Assembly: GCA_001798135.1 (NCBI GenBank)
Contig: MGRJ01000006.1
Location: forward strand, 1 to 64,000
Length of the DNA: 64,000 nt
Origin: Deltaproteobacteria bacterium RIFCSPHIGHO2_02_FULL_40_28
GTDB taxonomy: Bacteria; UBA10199; 2-12-FULL-40-28
Direction: 5' to 3'
The notes beneath the pieces were generated by a model. It ran no database searches. It saw only the letters and a program-made list of their open reading frames with translations, and had not been told where the DNA came from. Positions 7,990 to 64,000 of the stretch are shown one piece after another. Made by a program: the position numbers and the translations under genes. The number at the start of each line of letters is the position of its first letter. The first letter of the stretch is position 1.

Positions 7990-9972
7990 TTAATACGCAA
8001 TTCTCTCTTTAGCTAATTTTTCTACAACAGTTGGATCTGCGAGTGTAGACGTATCACCCAGGTTAGATAAATCCCCTTCTGCAATTTTTCGTAAAATACG
8101 ACGCATTATTTTTCCACTACGTGTTTTAGGTAAGGCTAACGCAAATTGAATCACCTCTGGTTTAGCAATGGCTCCAATTTCTTTTTTTACATGATTAAAA
8201 AGTTCGGTTTTGAGCTGATCACTCACTTTAATTCCATCCTTCAAACTTACAAAAGCATAAATGGATTGCCCCTTAATATCATGAGGGATGGGCACCACAG
8301 CAGCTTCGGAAACATTGGAGTTAGAAACAAGCGCACTTTCTACCTCGGCCGTACCAATGCGATGACCAGAAATATTTACCACATCATCAATGCGACCTAA
8401 AAGCCAGTAATCACCGTCTTCATCTTGCCTGCATCCATCCCCTGTGAAGTAAAGATTTTTGAAAGTTGAAAAATAAGTTTGAATGAAACGATCGTGATCT
8501 CCCCAGGTGGTGCGCATCATCCCTGGCCAGGGTTTTTTAATACACAATTTACCACCTTCATTTACATCACAAGTACTTCCATCATCCCGCAAAATAAGAG
8601 GCTCAACTCCAAAGAAAGGATAATTGGCAGAGCCTGGCTTAAGTGTGCTGGCTCCAGGAAAAGGTGAAATTAAAATTCCACCAGTTTCAGTTTGCCACCA
8701 GGTATCCACAATGCTGCAATGCCCATGACCAATTTCACGATAATACCAAAGCCAAGCTTCGGGATTAATGGGTTCGCCCACACTTCCCAAAATTCGCAAG
8801 GAATCGAGTTTGTATTTTTGTGGCCATTGGTCGCCCTCACGCATCAAGGCACGAATAGCCGTTGGAGCTGTATAAAAAATATTCACCTGATGTTTATCAA
8901 TCGTTTGCCAAAATCGATCGGGATGAGGATGGGTGGGAACCCCTTCAAAGAGTAAGGTTGTAGCTCCATTGGCTAGAGGTCCATACACTAAGTAACTATG
9001 CCCAGTTACCCAACCAATATCTGCTGTACACCAAAAAACTTCGCCTTCTTGATAATCAAAAATATATTTAAAGCTAGAAGCTACATGAAGAAAATACCCG
9101 GCTGTGGTATGCAACACTCCCTTGGGTTTACCGGTGGAGCCTGAAGTGTAAAGAATAAATAAGGGATCTTCGGCTTTCATCACCTCGGCTTGATTTTCTG
9201 GTTTTGTTTTTTCAATGACCTCGTGCCACCATACATCACGCCCCTCTTGCATCATTACTTTTCCATTTCCTCTTTTTAAAACAATCGATTTTTTAATACC
9301 GGGGCATGCAGTTAAAGCCTGATCTGCAATTGCTTTGATGGGAATTTCTTTTCCGGCCCTAAAACCCACATCGGCTGTAATTAAAAGGCTGCTTTGTGAA
9401 TCCTGAATGCGATCTCTTAAGGCATTGGCTGAAAAACCACCAAAGACAATGGAATGAATGGCACCAACACGCGTGCAAGCCAACATGGCAATGGCTGCCT
9501 CTGGTACCATGGGCATGTAAATGCAAACTCGATCACCTTTTTGAACCCCCAGATTTTTAAGTACATTGGCAAAACGGCATACATCAACGTAAAGCTCTCC
9601 GTAAGTAATTTTACGAACCTCTTCTTCTTTTTCCCCCTGCCATAAAATGGCCACCTGGTTTTTGCGTTTGGCAAGGTGGCGATCTAAACAATTAACAGAA
9701 ATATTGAGCGTGCCATCTTTAAACCAGGTGTGTTCAATTTGATTTTTGTTTGTTTCCCAAGTGTAGTCACAAGATTGTGTAGGAAAAGAAAACCAATCTA
9801 AAAGTTTGGCTTCGTTTAACCAAAAATTGTGAGAATCGTTAATTGATTGAGAATATTTTTTTTGATATTCTTCCCGCGAGCGAATGTGTGCTTTTTCTGA
9901 AATGGTTTTTGATGGCGGAAAACTTTGTCCTGCATGTGATAAAGATTGAATAGAAATATTTTTTTCATTCAT
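7990..9972 (-). CDS. acs: Acetyl-CoA synthetase
   Basis: A 660-residue AMP-forming acetate-CoA ligase that activates acetate to acetyl-CoA through acetyl-AMP. The length matches the family. The adenylation P-loop motif [14 protein letters not shown] lies near residue 275. The acetate-pocket/core motif [10 protein letters not shown] follows near 415, and YFTGDG near 500. The C-terminal SGKIMRR Lys near 620, which is acetylated in many homologues, is present. The start is supported by AGGGAG a few bases upstream. With the beta-oxidation genes downstream it suggests acyl/acetate carbon use. A composite repeat (C2) separates it from the HAD gene upstream. Confidence 0.97.
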
Positions 9973-9987
9973 ACCAACTCCCTGCTA

Positions 9988-10086
9988 GAACCCCCTGGGG
10001 GATCTTTTCTTTGCCTGCGGAACTCCTCGCCCCGAAGGCTCGTCAAACAGTCCTCGGCTACAGAAAAGACCCCCCAAGGGGTCTCC
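9988..10086 (-). repeat. Composite inverted-repeat element C2
   Basis: The outer arms (CCCCCTGGGGGATCTTTTCT and AGAAAAGACCCCCCAAGGGG) pair with each other around the family core CTGCGGAACTCCTCGCCC..GGCTCGTC..ACAGTCCTCGG. Arms differ from those of C3 and C4 but stay complementary. It fills the gap between HAD and acs, both on the minus strand. Confidence 0.8.
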
Positions 10087-10098
10087 CCAGCAACCATA

Positions 10099-10770
10099 TT
10101 AACAACACTCACTAGGAAAATGCGACAAATCAGGTATAACCCACGTAGCCCCTGCATCCTTTAATGTTTCTGCTTTCGTTCGCCCTGTGCAAACAGCTAG
10201 AGTCTTGGCTCCAATAGCTAAGCCACACCTTACATCATGAATGGTATCTCCCACTACAATTACTTTTTTTGGAGAAGTTTTTAAATATTGGGTGGCTCGG
10301 GTAAGTGCTAATCTTGTTAAAACTTCTCTATCAGCTGAATCACTTCCATAACCACCATAGTCAAAATAAGAACGCAGACCTGCTCTTACCAATTTATGAT
10401 GTGCTGCTCTTTCATAATTGCCTGTAGCTAATCCCATAGAAACATGGGCTAGAGAGTGAAGGTACTTAAGCACTTCAGGCACATGGGGCATGAGACGAAA
10501 ACGAGTGGCAGTTTTTAAGGCTTCGGGCAATTTAATGGAATAAAGTTCTTCAATTTGTTTTTTTTCATCTAACGTTGGCATTTGCCTAAAACGATTAAAA
10601 TATATTTCTTCCAAAATAGAATCATCCGTTCTTCCATCAGGTTCGATTTTGCTCCAAATATCTTTCACGCCATAAAGTTCAAAAAAAACATTTTCAAAAG
10701 CCAAGCCCCCTGCCCCACCTGTTAGTAAAAGCGTTCCATCAATATCCCAAAGAAAAACAGTTTTGCTCAT
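10099..10770 (-). CDS. HAD-superfamily hydrolase (phosphoglycolate phosphatase-like)
   Basis: A 223-residue haloacid dehalogenase-type phosphatase. Motif I is DIDGTLLLTGG near residue 9, giving the nucleophile Asp and the acid/base Asp. The cap domain is helical at about 20-95. Motif II lies around ATGN (about 117). Motif III/IV is VVGDTIHDVRCG near 173. The arrangement is of the Gph/PgmB type, but the substrate cannot be read from sequence. The ribosome binding site is weak. It is upstream of acs on the same strand, separated by the C2 repeat. Confidence 0.85.
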   Translation of the reverse strand: MSKTVFLWDIDGTLLLTGGAGGLAFENVFFELYGVKDIWSKIEPDGRTDDSILEEIYFNRFRQMPTLDEKKQIEELYSIKLPEALKTATRFRLMPHVPEVLKYLHSLAHVSMGLATGNYERAAHHKLVRAGLRSYFDYGGYGSDSADREVLTRLALTRATQYLKTSPKKVIVVGDTIHDVRCGLAIGAKTLAVCTGRTKAETLKDAGATWVIPDLSHFPSECC

Positions 10771-10850
10771 TAAAAAAGTCTATGAAACCAAAATAAAAAA
10801 GGAAAGAAAAGATTAAGGGGCACTTCTATTTACTCAAACTTTTTTCTATT

Positions 10851-10980
10851 TGTCATTCCCGTCCGTCTGAGGCGGATCAGGACAGAATCCGTCATCCCGG
10901 CCGAAGCAAGTATTTCGAGCGGAGAGCCGGGATCCATCCCATGAATTAATTCTGGATCCCGCATCAAGTGCGGGATGACA
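10851..10980. repeat. GTCATCCC-type composite repeat B2
   Basis: Begins TGTCATTCCCGTC and ends GTGCGGGATGACA, with internal GTCATCCCGGCC...GAGCCGGGATCC and GGATCCCGCATC parts. It looks like two adjacent copies of the repeat. It lies in the 453-bp gap between the HAD gene and the thiolase operon. The rest of that gap is AT-rich and holds only the thiolase promoter region. Confidence 0.7.
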
Positions 10981-55629: not shown

Positions 55630-55762
55630 GAGAGAACCTTTTTACTTCTTTTTTAAAAACAAGAAAAGGTTAAAAGTATACTCATAAAATTATAATTATT
55701 TCATGTATTTATCAATAAATATTCTATTCTTTCTGGCACAAACCTTGCTGTGTAAGGAGGCT

Positions 55763-58700
55763 ATGCGAGGGGGAAATGTACTTCGAATTCTATTGCTTTG
55801 TGGTGTATTGGCTACCACTGTCGTTAATTGCAACGAAACCGACCCTAGCCTCATGCAAAATTTTGGTTCTTGTTCCCCCAATAATTTAGGTGGAAATTTT
55901 GATAGCAGCGAAAGTAGCGGGGCACTAGAAGCGGGTTACCCTGTTGATATCCCAGCCCCCTTAGCTAAAAGCATTGATGGTATTGATGGCAGCTCCGTAA
56001 CCTTTCATGAAGGGGTTTCTTCTAATATCTCAACTGAATTTCTTATCTCAACTGAATATGTTGAAACAAGTTATGTAGGAAAAGTAACCTTCAAGAAAAA
56101 AAATGGAGATAATGGCGATGTATTTGTTGTTAAAGATGGAGTGATTGTACAAACTCTCACTCCTGATTTTGATGGCGATGCTTACATCTACACCCTCTGG
56201 ATTGCTACAAGCGATTTGGATAACGATATTTTCTTGGTTGTGCCTGGATCGGGATCAAAAGTTGTATCGGGGGCAAGTACTGGGGATGTGAGCTTCCCGG
56301 TGACCATACGTGTAACACAAAGTTTAGATACGTATGTGCTTACGGTTCTTATTACTGCAACTGCCATCACTGTTCAAGATACCGATGTTCAAGCAGAGAT
56401 TAAAGAAACCTTTCCCACTTCCATTGATACCGGGGATATTATTGCTACCGCTACAAATGATTCAGGAATTTTACTTACTCAAATTAATTACAAAGAAAAT
56501 GTAAACTCAGTTTATACACAAGTTGATAACGAACCTCATGCTCTCAAAAGTCCAGACTCCGAGACCGTTTATTTTCTTGATGAAGAAAGTGATATCTTCA
56601 AAATAGATCCAGATAGCTTAGATGAAATTACACTTGTAGATTTTAGTGGTAATATCCCTGGAAGAGATTTTGATATCAGAGGGAATTTTATGACTTTTAT
56701 TATTAGAGTAAGCCATAATTCTGGCCCAACTACTTCTTCTATGGCCTTTAAAGACATAGACACTGGAGTAGATTTTATCCCTCCCCTAGACCCCGCAGAA
56801 CAAGTGGTTACAAAAATGCATGTTACCTGGTTTGACGAAAGTAAAATTATTGTTGGGAAAAAATTTGCGGATGGGACTACCGCACTGCAAATATGGAATG
56901 TTGGACCTTACTTAATTGGTGCAGCCACTAGCCCTAACATAGAATTCAATTATACAGGAGTGTTAACAAACATTGGACACATAACTACCGATGATGGTGC
57001 CCTGGGAAATGCTTTCTTTGAATGTAATGATGGCGAAATTTGCAAGATCAATCAAGACACCAAAGAAGTCGAAGTGATTGTAAGCAGTAATCTCTATAAA
57101 GCTGACAATCCTGTTTTGGCTTCTCCTTATAGCTATTTGATGTTTGAGGCCATTCGAGATGAAAATCCCGCACCAGTGCTTGGTGTTTATTCTTTAGAGA
57201 CAGAAACCGTCACACCTGTAGCCATGGGACAATTTGCAACTAGAGTTGCTGGCAAACCCAACTTGATAGCTTATATTGGAAAATTAAAAACAGAAGAAAT
57301 TCAGGTAGCTCTTACCAATTTAGGAAATATTCCCAAACTTACTCAAACAGATCTGTCCATCACCCCTACTTCCATTTACAAAGGACTTGATTATATTACT
57401 TCACTTTCAGGCGTAGGCGGAATTCCTCCCTACACTTTTAACCTTGTTTCTGGAACTGGAATCCTGGATACAAGCTTGGGTCTTTTTAAAGGCACGGGCG
57501 TAGGAGCTGCTACTATCAAGGTAAAGGATGATGCTGGAAGCCAAGCTGCAGCAACCGTTACAACCATAGCCCACGGAGGACTTGACCCATCTTTTGCTGA
57601 AAATGGAATTGCAACTAACGATCTAGGTACCAATGATGGTTTAAGAACCGTTACTATCAATAGCAATGGTAAAATTATAGCAGCAGGAGTGGTTACCCAA
57701 TCGGGGCAACAAAACACCTTGGTCGTTCGCTATAAAGCTGATGGCAGTTTAGATACTACCTTTGACACCGATGGAGTAGCTACTTTTAATGTGGCCGATG
57801 GGGCTGATAGAGCACAAGCTATCATCATTGATTTACAAGGACGTATCTTGATTTGCGGTCTCCTGACTAATGCCACCCCCAATAAAGATGCCTATGTCAT
57901 GCGACTTACAGCAGCAGGGGCTTTGGATAGTACTTTCGCAACAGGCGGTCTTAATAAATTAGCTTACTCCGCTAGCGTTGATGATGCTTGCCATGGCATG
58001 AACATTGGTACCGATGGCTCTATTTATGTTGGTGGTGATATATCAGAGAGTTCTAGTGTCTTTGTAGTTTCCAAACTCGATACCTCTGGAAATTTAGACA
58101 GCTCTTATGGAACAAGCGGCTCCACTAAAATTAGTTTTGGCACTGGAGATGCCATACTCTCCGATATCGTTATCAGTAACACCAATCAAATTTATGCGGG
58201 AGGAAGTTATACTCCAGATGGCTCGAGCAATTCTGATTTTGCAATGGCCAAGCTTAATGCAAGCGGCGTGCTTGATACTTCTTTTAGTACAGACGGCATC
58301 ACAACTACTGATTTTGGAGGAGATGATGTGGGTGGTAAAATGTTTTTTCGTGCAGCTGCTCCTAAAGACAAAATCTTTATGGCAGGCACTACCACTGCTT
58401 ATGGTACAACAGATATTGCTGTACTAGCCGGTTTTTCAGATGGAAACCTAGATACCTCATTTGATAGCGATGGCCTAGTTACCCTGATTGATGCCGATGG
58501 AACTGATGGAGATGGAGATATTTTGTATACAGACAATGGGCTTTTCATTACAGGAGCTATGAGTTCGGGCTCAGAACTAGATTGGGCCGTTATACGATTA
58601 AAAGCAGATGGTACAAGAGATACCGATTTTGGTGTAGATGGTATTGCAAACATTGATATAAATGCAGATGATAAACCAAGAGGCATCATGCTGGATTCAG

Positions 58701-58777
58701 ATAAACGCATCATTACCGTTGGTGGAACCGATACGGGTTCTGATGTTCATTCTGTTGCGATAAGAATGTGGCCTTAA
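55763..58777 (+). CDS. Delta-60-repeat surface lipoprotein
   Basis: A protein of about 1004 residues. From the ATG at 55763 ([22 protein letters not shown]) it has a lipoprotein signal; AAGGAGG is only 2 bases upstream, so the longer start at 55703 remains possible. The N-terminal two thirds is a beta-rich region with propeller-like parts. Residues of about 615-1000 carry seven repeats of the delta-60 type, each beginning LDxxF..DG (for example [13 protein letters not shown] and [13 protein letters not shown]). It is probably outward-facing. It sits on the plus strand between rpmA and obgE, which are adjacent in most bacteria, and overlaps rpmA by 4 bp. Confidence 0.8.
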
Positions 58778-60748: not shown

Positions 60749-61492
60749 ATGAAACAAATTCTTCTCCTGTGTGCTGCCAAACCAGAATGGGCATCACTAA
60801 AAAAATTTTTGGATTTTAAAAAGCAAGAAGGGCCTCTTCCCTTTTTTCATGCCAAAACCAAGCATATAAGCATTACATTAGTGCAAATTGGCATTGGGAT
60901 AGCACAGGCCAAAAAAAGTATTCTCTCGCTTCTCTCTATCATTCCTCCCCCCGATGAAATTATTCATTTTGGAGTTTCAGGAAGCCTTGTCCCAGATCTT
61001 GAATCCGGAGATGTTGTTATTCCCTCTCATGTTTTTTTTCATACCCAACAATCCTTGGAGTGTCATTTAGCTCTTAGGCAAAAACTAAAAGAAGCCACCT
61101 TAGAAGCTCAATTAAAAGTAATAGAAGGAGACCTGTTAACCAGCCCTTTTGTTCTTAAAACAGAACAAGAAAAAAAAGAAGCTCATCAAAAAACCAAAGC
61201 TTTTATTGTAGATATGGAAACCCATCCGGTGCTTCAAATTTTTACCACAAAAAATATTCCATATGCTGCCTTAAGAGTTATTTTTGATACGCTTTGCGTA
61301 GATCTTTCCAATTTGGATGATGCGGGCATGATGGATGAAATGGGGAATATAAGTACCACCAAAACATTGGGAACCTTGGTTAAGAAACCAAAAATGATTT
61401 TTGAACTCTTGCCTTACAGAAAATTATTAAGTTTATGTCAGATTCGATTGGGTCTTGTTTTAGAAAAATATTTACAAAAAACTTCCATCTGA
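60749..61492 (+). CDS. Nucleoside phosphorylase-superfamily protein (MTA/SAH nucleosidase or HpnG-like)
   Basis: A 247-residue protein with the phosphorylase fold. It opens ILLLCAAKPEW, has QIGIGIAQAKKSI, HFGVSGSLVPDLESGDVVIP (typical loop G..G....GD...), VDMETHP (ribose-binding Met-Glu) and FDT as the candidate catalytic Asp. It is related to PNP/MTA nucleosidases and the hopanoid-associated HpnG. The base specificity is not clear. The last 21 bp overlap the convergent ribonucleotide reductase-like gene. Confidence 0.75.
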   Translation: MKQILLLCAAKPEWASLKKFLDFKKQEGPLPFFHAKTKHISITLVQIGIGIAQAKKSILSLLSIIPPPDEIIHFGVSGSLVPDLESGDVVIPSHVFFHTQQSLECHLALRQKLKEATLEAQLKVIEGDLLTSPFVLKTEQEKKEAHQKTKAFIVDMETHPVLQIFTTKNIPYAALRVIFDTLCVDLSNLDDAGMMDEMGNISTTKTLGTLVKKPKMIFELLPYRKLLSLCQIRLGLVLEKYLQKTSI

Positions 61493-63544
61493 CGGAGTAA
61501 AATAAGAACCCAATGCGTTTTCTGACTGATCGAGATAAAACTTGGCTCCAATGGGTTTGCCTGTCCATAAAAACAAGGCAGAACTCCAAAAAAAGTGCGG
61601 GGCTCCTCTATCAGGTAAGAAAACAAGTTGCCCCCAAAAGCCAGAACACCATAGGCCCAGTTGATTTAAAACAAAATTCCAATCATCCAATTCGAAATAC
61701 TGGGGTTTCCCCTTTTGCTGGGAAATCAAAGCCACTAGGGGAGGAGAAAAGGAAAGAGATTTTAATCCCATTTCATAAGCACGTAAAACTAAAGTACTGC
61801 ATTCCTTGGATGTAAGGCCAGAATGAATAGGAATGAGTTTAAAAACCCCTTCTTCTGTAAATTTTTGAAAAGCTTTTTGGATAGCCAGATGAATATCATA
61901 ATTCCACAGGGTGCTAGGTGGTTCAATGCCAGGGGTTACGCAAAAAATAGAACTTACCTCTCGGGCATCTCCCAAGGCAGTAACTGTTGCATGTCTTCTT
62001 CTTTGAGACTTGGCTAATTTGCTCTCAGCAAAATTAAAAAATACTCCACGACGATCTGCTAACCTATGACTGGCTTCATTAAGCTGTCTTTGAATAAAAG
62101 ACATGAGAGTTTCAATCAAACTTAAAGCCTCGTTCGATTGGTAATTTATTTTGAGTTGCGTGAGTAAATCAGAAAAGCCAGTAACACCAATCCCTAGTTT
62201 TCGATCTTGACTATGAACCTTGTCTCCTTTGGTTTCCATAATTTCGGCCAAGTTATCCAAAAAATGAAGAGAGGCTTTCAAGGTAAAGGCTAATTTTTCC
62301 CATTCGATTTGACCTTGGTACCCATGGTTGGCCAAGTTGATAAAACCTCCAAAACAAGCTTCGGATTGATGAAGAGAAATAGCCTGACGGGGAGAATATC
62401 CTTCAATAAATCCCAATCTGGGAGTGGGATTGTATTTTTCGAGTTGGTCAGAAAAAATAATATTTACCAAATCAGAATGAGGTTTTAAAGAAGCCAGTTT
62501 TAAAGCCTCAGTGATGGTTTTTTCAACAGAAGGAATAAGACCAAATTTTGTGAGGTGCCGATCTGCTAGACATAAAACCCAAGATAAGTTTGAGTCTCCT
62601 TTCAGGTTTTCAAACAAGAGATCAAAAAAACGGGAATCATCAGGATTAATATGAATCACACTTGCTGTGGGCTCTTTGTTTTCTTTACACATCATACGTG
62701 CAGATAAAATTAATTTTATTAAATCCCCGGCCTCGGGCAAGTTGGCATCAGCTTGAGGAATTTTTACCAAATTAATCAGACAGGAAATTCCCTGTTTCCA
62801 AAGCCTTCCTGCCTTTTTAAGATTATCTAGCATTTCTTCTAAATGCTGGCCCAAAAAGAGAGCCATTGTAGGATACAAAGGGCCCCTTCCAAAGTTTTTC
62901 AAAGAATGAGGATGGGGAAAAAACAATCCCTCATGTAAAATTTTTTCAAAAATTTTCATCGTACTTTCAATTTTAGCTAAAGGTTCATACCGTTGGTCAA
63001 TACGGGCCATATCTTTTGCAATCCGAGATAAAAATCCTCTGGCATCTTCTAATAAATTTCCCTTGGCATTGCGGAGGCAATAATTTTCTTCTAAAATTTT
63101 TAAACCGATAGCAGGCAGAAGTGTAGACGAAAACCTGGATTTAGGCATTTGTGGAGCAGGAGTAACCAATTCTTGTTTGGTTTCCTGTTTTTGGGGGCGG
63201 GCCAAAATGGCAAGAATATCCTCTGAAAGGCTATCTTGCGCCGGGGGAATCATTGGCTTTGTTTGCTCTAAGGGGAAAACTTTTGGCAAACCCATCAAAC
63301 CCAATTCTTTTAGTTTTGTAAAAACAGCATCATCTAAAAAGGCTGGGCTCACCCACTCTAGCTCTTTTTTATTCAGCTCTTTTTCAATTTCATCAGCAAT
63401 AAGCCTCGCCATGGGTTCGGTTAGTTGTTCATGTTTTCTAAGCAGATCTAAAACAAAAGTGTCTTTTTTAAACCGAACAAGACCCTTAAAAGCCATAGAA
63501 TCTGGCTTGTCTTTTTTGTTCGAATTTTTAGGAAACAAAGCCAT
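61472..63544 (-). CDS. Degenerate class II ribonucleotide reductase paralogue
   Basis: A 690-residue protein whose layout follows B12-dependent NrdJ: N-terminal ENYCLRNAKGNLLED (about 153), FFPHPHSLKNFGR (208-220, FxPNSPTLMNAG in active enzymes), RKLGIGVTGFSDLL (448-461), RRRHATVTALGDAREVSS (515-532) and HLAIQKAFQKFTEEG (552-566). The key motif NPCGE is SPRQA (384-388), so Asn, the thiyl Cys and Glu are all gone, while C397 at the position of the third Cys remains. The second Cys (SAC) is YPT (224-226). The PTGT phosphate loop is DAREV. It should be inactive as a reductase; a regulatory or new catalytic role is possible. Confidence 0.75.
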   Translation of the reverse strand: MALFPKNSNKKDKPDSMAFKGLVRFKKDTFVLDLLRKHEQLTEPMARLIADEIEKELNKKELEWVSPAFLDDAVFTKLKELGLMGLPKVFPLEQTKPMIPPAQDSLSEDILAILARPQKQETKQELVTPAPQMPKSRFSSTLLPAIGLKILEENYCLRNAKGNLLEDARGFLSRIAKDMARIDQRYEPLAKIESTMKIFEKILHEGLFFPHPHSLKNFGRGPLYPTMALFLGQHLEEMLDNLKKAGRLWKQGISCLINLVKIPQADANLPEAGDLIKLILSARMMCKENKEPTASVIHINPDDSRFFDLLFENLKGDSNLSWVLCLADRHLTKFGLIPSVEKTITEALKLASLKPHSDLVNIIFSDQLEKYNPTPRLGFIEGYSPRQAISLHQSEACFGGFINLANHGYQGQIEWEKLAFTLKASLHFLDNLAEIMETKGDKVHSQDRKLGIGVTGFSDLLTQLKINYQSNEALSLIETLMSFIQRQLNEASHRLADRRGVFFNFAESKLAKSQRRRHATVTALGDAREVSSIFCVTPGIEPPSTLWNYDIHLAIQKAFQKFTEEGVFKLIPIHSGLTSKECSTLVLRAYEMGLKSLSFSPPLVALISQQKGKPQYFELDDWNFVLNQLGLWCSGFWGQLVFLPDRGAPHFFWSSALFLWTGKPIGAKFYLDQSENALGSYFTPSDGSFL

Positions 63545-63639: not shown

Positions 63640-64000
63640 CTAGTAATACATTTTTATGATATCAATTATTTTCCTCGTAACGCTGGTTAAGGGGTAATTG
63701 ATCAATTGTGCCTTTGAAACCATTTTGCCTTCACCTTGGAATAATGTTTTGGATTTTGAATGAACGAGGTAGGGATAAACCTTCATCCTGCGATTCATAA
63801 TAGAATGTTTAAGCAAGGGGAGGTTTTCTTTAACCTTAATATTTCTAAGACCAGTTTTTTGAAGTTCTTTTTTCAAAAGAGAAAAATCTTTTGCAACTTC
63901 CTGCTCTACTTCTAAAAGAGGAAACTCCCACTGATTTCCCAAAACCTCTCCCAACTTTCTTTTCCTTAAAAGAAATTTTGAATCTTTTGTTAAAATTAAG
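63640..64000 (-). CDS. mutY: A/G-specific adenine glycosylase MutY, C-terminal part (runs off window)
   Basis: The open frame continues beyond the window end (bases 63955-64000 read on without a stop). It encodes LILTKDSKFLLRKRK..LGNQWEFPLLEVE, LLKHSIMNRRMKVYPYLV and YPLTSVTRKIIDII, which match the Nudix-like C-terminal domain of MutY that recognises 8-oxoG. The glycosylase domain lies outside. The assignment rests on this domain only. Confidence 0.72.
   Translation of the reverse strand, partial: LILTKDSKFLLRKRKLGEVLGNQWEFPLLEVEQEVAKDFSLLKKELQKTGLRNIKVKENLPLLKHSIMNRRMKVYPYLVHSKSKTLFQGEGKMVSKAQLINYPLTSVTRKIIDIIKMYY

Follow-up and report, generated by a model that had tools for sequence, protein, structure and literature searches.

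The closest described counterparts of the protein reported here come from viruses and from two other bacterial ribonucleotide reductases (RNRs). The R1 proteins of betaherpesviruses, namely UL45 of HCMV, M45 of MCMV and U28 of HHV-6B, have lost RNR activity and are kept for protein–protein functions (PMC5469499, PMC11772975). In P. aeruginosa, the class II RNR is split into NrdJa and NrdJb and includes a non-catalytic component (PMC4520616), and in the active class Ib RNR of B. subtilis (NrdE) a truncated ATP-cone drives oligomer formation and regulation (PMC9669993). We found no precedent, in the literature searched, for a dead class II RNR with a second job in a bacterium.

The gene analysed in the present study lies in a 64,000-nucleotide stretch of DNA (the window) from Deltaproteobacteria bacterium RIFCSPHIGHO2_02_FULL_40_28, genome G000 in our set. 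What its product has in common with the betaherpesvirus R1 proteins is that it is a homologue of the RNR large subunit whose enzyme activity appears to be lost; however, those proteins are viral, of class I type and act on host signalling, whereas the present case is bacterial and of class II. It also differs from NrdJb, which is a thiol-exchange subunit, in being an apparently dead, full-length barrel.

An NrdJ homologue stripped of catalytic residues

The ORF at positions 61472–63544 of the reverse strand runs unbroken from ATG to stop, encodes 690 amino acids and was matched to class II RNR (NrdJ) by profile, sequence and fold. The Pfam barrel PF02867 matches it with an E-value of 5e-20 (72 bits against a cut-off of 23.9), and a degenerate RNR all-alpha domain occupies residues 145–217 (62894–63112, reverse strand), where PF00317 matches across residues 145–201 at E 6.7e-5, under its curated cut-off. 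The best NrdJ profile was NCBIfam PRK08665 (E 1.4e-53), although the score of 182 bits is far under the equivalog cut-off of 961, and the closest solved structure by sequence in a PDB search was T. maritima NrdJ (E 7e-17). When an AlphaFold model of the protein (pTM 0.71) was submitted to Foldseek, the top matches were all T. maritima NrdJ (E 1.6e-26, TM about 0.6); because this AF2 model was built on an input alignment of intact NrdJ sequences, the fold agreement is partly imposed, and the claim of homology rests on the sequence statistics. With barrel and NrdJ profiles matching far beyond chance, the protein belongs to class II RNR (NrdJ) as a homologous fold. Compared with NrdJ of the PRK08665/TIGR02504 (NrdJ_Z) type, as in T. 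maritima (1XJE, 3O0O), it has the same domain order, fold, second-half barrel motifs and second redox Cys, but is without the thiyl Cys, the Asn and Glu, the first redox Cys, the PTGT motif and the loop-2 residues, and no TSCPD domain was detectable.

A preliminary description of the window had reported an overall NrdJ layout including RKLGIGVTGF and HLAIQKAFQKFTEE, both of which were found in the ORF, and three substitutions, all borne out by our alignment. SPRQA replaces NPCGE at residues 384–388 (62381–62395), with loss of the thiyl Cys and of the catalytic Asn and Glu; YPT replaces SAC at residues 224–226 (62867–62875), with loss of the first redox Cys; and DAREV replaces PTGT-x at residues 526–530 (61955–61969), all on the reverse strand. 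The Cys that was described as following the thiyl position by 11 residues is likewise present, being Cys397 (62354–62356, reverse strand) counted from Arg386, and it is the aligned equivalent of the second redox Cys; of the redox pair, C226 is therefore Thr and C397 is kept. In addition, the loop-2 specificity-site residues R-G-A-N read K-E-P-T. We take these aligned positions to be the thiyl, redox and specificity-loop residues established for class II RNR in T. maritima NrdJ. All 59 named intact NrdJ proteins examined keep the thiyl Cys, the catalytic Asn and Glu, both redox Cys and the R-G-A-N of loop 2 (59/59 for each), whereas in the window protein none of the features that an active class II RNR needs, i.e. 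thiyl Cys with Asn and Glu, redox Cys pair, PTGT strand and loop 2, is intact. On this alignment the window protein is very probably a catalytically dead NrdJ, and the description of a full-length dead paralogue is supported by the 690-residue frame as well as by the motifs. Annotation from the barrel domain alone would label such dead genes as functional RNRs.

Dead relatives, locus and the intact reductase

The genome (2.16 Mb in 31 contigs, rated 100% complete) contains a single further PF02867 gene. It lies on contig C23 and encodes a class II NrdJ in which the motifs NPC, HACF and PTGT and a cluster of Cys at the C-terminus are present; this is the intact nrdJ that the preliminary description proposed to look for. 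This enzyme is PRK07562-like, whereas the window copy is PRK08665-like. A search for class III NrdD gave nothing in this genome or in any of the 46 genomes of the class; with the intact C23 NrdJ as the only other RNR, dNTP supply presumably rests on it. The C23 gene (3492–6761 of its contig) carries a large in-frame intein-type insertion right after the NPC of the thiyl motif, and its frame is 1578 amino acids long as against about 1180–1250 in most relatives of the order. The intact RNR of G001 (contig C186) has a long in-frame intein-type insertion at its HAC motif, in a 1485-amino-acid frame.

Each of the eight genomes of the order combines an intact, longer-type class II RNR with a second gene of NrdJ type, and in six of them (G000 to G005) this second copy is dead to a varying degree; those of G006 and G007 keep NPCGE and PTGT or PAGT. 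Dead copies were also found in G010, G011, G017, G021, G026, G031 and G043, bringing dead relatives to 13 of the 46 genomes of the class; those from outside the order belong to three further families, and the gene is missing from most of the rest. The loss of residues is graded, with G002 keeping three Cys, G003 one and G004 none, and the set lost differs by lineage. Stop-free frames of about 650–1000 codons occur in nine genomes of seven families, and shortened ones in G001 (341 amino acids) and G005 (about 490). Of the two catalytic-type copies, that of G007 is without the N-domain and that of G006 is frame-broken (8781–10875 of its C40 locus), with two frames around a missing stretch that reflects either a deletion or an assembly error. 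G011 also holds a second damaged NrdJ (G011a, 1659–3314 of contig C33), in which the thiyl Cys is Tyr and one in-frame TAG is present; this is a separate loss, in an NrdJ branch other than that of the window gene. In a profile scan of named genomes, NPCG and a PTGT-type motif are intact in each of the best 80 NrdJ matches, which come from other lineages and served as outgroup and catalytic control. Relatives of the window protein were found neither when named genomes were scanned with the single protein nor in a scan of viruses, and the matches from a plasmid search were ordinary RNRs by annotation.

The 3′ part of mutY (HhH-GPD, NUDIX_4; 63640–64000, reverse strand) lies about 95 bp upstream of the dead gene and runs past the window edge, and a nucleoside phosphorylase-like gene of the PNP_UDP_1 family (60749–61492, forward strand) is convergent with the dead gene and overlaps its 3′ end by 21 bp. 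Elsewhere in the window, a 1024-amino-acid ORF (55703–58777, forward strand) appears, by eye, to consist of delta-60-type repeats in its second half. A same-strand mutY precedes the NrdJ-type gene in G000, where the gap of about 95 bp applies, and in G003, G004, G006 and G007; the G000 and G003 loci both have a nucleoside phosphorylase-like gene, an efflux adaptor and an L21 gene nearby. In G001 and G005 the divergent neighbour of the dead gene is a large gene, smc to judge by eye, and in G010, G011, G017 and G021 it is a LysM/SLT gene. Each of these three contexts occurs in more than one genus, and two of them in more than one family. The common mutY locus argues that the dead and catalytic-type copies are orthologues. 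Dead orthologues share the catalytic loss, as the preliminary description proposed to check, but what it named as a refutation, orthologues with intact catalytic residues, was also found in part: G006 and G007, at the same mutY locus, keep these residues, and death is therefore a derived, lineage-level event.

In the tree, the dead copies fall on one side of a branch with support 89/98, and the catalytic-type copies of G006 and G007 are sister to them inside a 13-row group with support 95/99. Branches of the dead copies in the order are 1.7–4.7 changes per site long, G002 excepted. A grouping of G002 with its family members G006 and G007 was rejected (p 0.008), and a single group of the six order members was not (p 0.116). 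Because the branches are long and dead and catalytic orthologues share the mutY locus, the number of catalytic deaths in the main clade is not fixed by the tree. Sequence change in the dead copies is rapid: the G000 dead gene is 26–30% identical to its orthologues in the order and to other dead copies; for the adjacent mutY the identity between G000 and its relatives in the order is 44–48%, and for the intact RNR about 65–76%.

Constraint and conserved regions

We simulated neutral drift of the window CDS down to 50% amino acid identity, and the 100 runs gave a mean of 18.6 stops with a minimum of 11, as against none in the 690 codons of the window gene. Between the dead genes of G000 and G004, 43% of sites differ at codon position 2 and 70% at position 3. 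The dN/dS value was 0.21 for the dead pair G021b/G043b, with a Fisher p of 7e-15 for unequal rates, as against 0.03 for the active NrdJ that these genomes also encode; no other dead pair was similar enough for a reliable estimate, and this one comes from another order and another locus than the window gene. The window CDS thus has neither the stops and frameshifts nor the neutral pattern of a pseudogene, the dN/dS part of this statement being taken from its dead relatives. The full-length maintenance to which the preliminary description pointed is supported by these measures, with reading frame and constraint on the amino acid sequence both kept; the dN/dS comparison that it called for was made in dead relatives from elsewhere in the class. 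These data show that the constraint on the dead copies is real, and looser than that on the working RNR.

Conservation within the dead family is concentrated in two regions, each with a median identity between families of 0.38 as against 0.12–0.22 for the rest of the protein: a truncated, ATP-cone-like N-terminal helical domain (residues 24–86; 63287–63475, reverse strand) and the core of the second half of the barrel, including N403, L418, HFLDN and RKLGIGVTGF (residues 403–512; 62009–62338, reverse strand). Within residues 446–512, 15 of the 19 residues conserved in intact proteins are retained. N403, L418, F428 and G456 are kept in 12 of 12 dead members, and the structural residues N403, L404, L418, F428–N431, R448, G456, L461 and Y468 almost throughout, whereas the catalytic, redox and loop-2 sets have been lost. 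Residues 222–360 rank among the least conserved, as does the stretch of the barrel in which the elements for effector binding and dimer formation canonically lie. At two positions the dead clade repeatedly carries one particular replacement, His for N518 and Pro for S538 (7/12 each), and the window protein has both.

The likeness of the N-domain to an ATP-cone comes from profile comparisons. PF03477 weakly matches seven of ten N-domains of the family at E-values up to 1 (best 2.8e-4), with no match listed for the N-segment of the window protein itself, and in a profile–profile comparison the family N-domain aligned to true ATP-cones with P 5.6e-5 and a probability of 66, the alignment beginning past the KRDG hairpin. 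This nucleotide-binding hairpin is absent from all ten N-domains aligned. A shortened, ATP-cone-derived N-domain is what the window protein would share with B. subtilis NrdE, its resemblance resting on these weak profile matches; NrdE is an active enzyme, however, whereas the catalytic domain here is very probably dead.

Possible roles of the dead copies

On balance we favour a pseudoenzyme, i.e. an NrdJ-type RNR that has shed its radical chemistry along with the sites for substrate and effector and would still be selected as a folded protein; that the dead NrdJ has some selected, non-catalytic role is likely. The leading rival is a relic in slow decay, under near-relaxed selection since the other NrdJ took over, its frame open by chance or through a weak constraint against misfolding. 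We consider such a relic rather unlikely. The very long branches of the dead copies, the low identity of the dead gene to its orthologues, the graded loss of different catalytic residues in each lineage and the broken or shortened copies in G001, G005, G006 and G011a are what decay would produce, but the long stop-free frames persist despite large divergence where the drift simulation expects many stops, the dead pair G021b/G043b has a dN/dS of only 0.21, synteny is conserved and the N-domain is as conserved as the barrel core.

The preliminary description had offered dNTP sensing as one possible role, with the allosteric sites of an RNR kept in the absence of catalysis. An N-domain resembling an ATP-cone and an overall RNR fold retained in the predicted model would suit a dNTP or ATP sensor; however, the loop-2 residues R-G-A-N are K-E-P-T here and largely gone in the dead family, the KRDG hairpin at the start of intact cones is absent and residues 222–360 are poorly conserved. 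Since both effector-site signatures are lost, this suggestion is not supported, and we regard it as the least probable of all. Hardly more credible is a new enzyme activity in the old RNR barrel, for which the recurrent His and Pro replacements might be cited: no invariant new set of polar residues fills the former active site in the dead proteins, and different lineages have different residues at the thiyl, PTGT and loop positions. A more specific form of the pseudoenzyme reading, partnership with the active RNR, would make the protein an alpha-like subunit, itself non-catalytic, which joins the intact NrdJ in a complex and tunes its activity. It has in its favour that every genome with the dead gene also has an intact class II RNR, that truncated cones drive the oligomers of the B. 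subtilis class Ib enzyme (PMC9669993) and that the split RNR of P. aeruginosa combines catalytic and non-catalytic subunits (PMC4520616), but we judge it improbable. Since nearly all genomes of the class have an intact RNR, co-occurrence weighs little, and most of these genomes have it without a dead copy; moreover, the intact NrdJ sits on another contig and has no cone-like N-domain on inspection, and the dead protein is poorly conserved where the canonical dimer interface would lie.

If the pseudoenzyme reading is correct, the supply of dNTPs by the PRK07562-like C23 NrdJ would have left the PRK08665-like copy free to lose catalysis, and this copy may have been kept for a non-catalytic protein–protein role exerted through its truncated cone-like N-domain and half-barrel. 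Our best guess is an oligomerizing protein that would act as a scaffold or modulator, possibly for enzymes of nucleotide metabolism or DNA repair, with oligomerization suggested because cones and truncated cones in known RNRs work via oligomer formation (PMC9669993); by this analogy, assembly through the N-domain is conceivable, although we would not call it probable. The whole proposal, in which a bacterial clade has turned an entire class II RNR into a non-catalytic structural or regulatory protein that assembles through its N-domain with a partner from nucleotide metabolism or DNA repair, its dead copies being kept across an order and further families, is put forward tentatively.

Dead NrdJ copies beside a working RNR in related bacteria suggest a non-enzymatic job. 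The order presents a graded series in which G006 and G007 have catalytic-type copies, G002 a partly stripped one and G000, G003 and G004 fully stripped ones; with five members of the series at one mutY locus it would, to judge from the sequences, constitute a natural experiment in which an essential radical enzyme loses its chemistry and keeps its fold.
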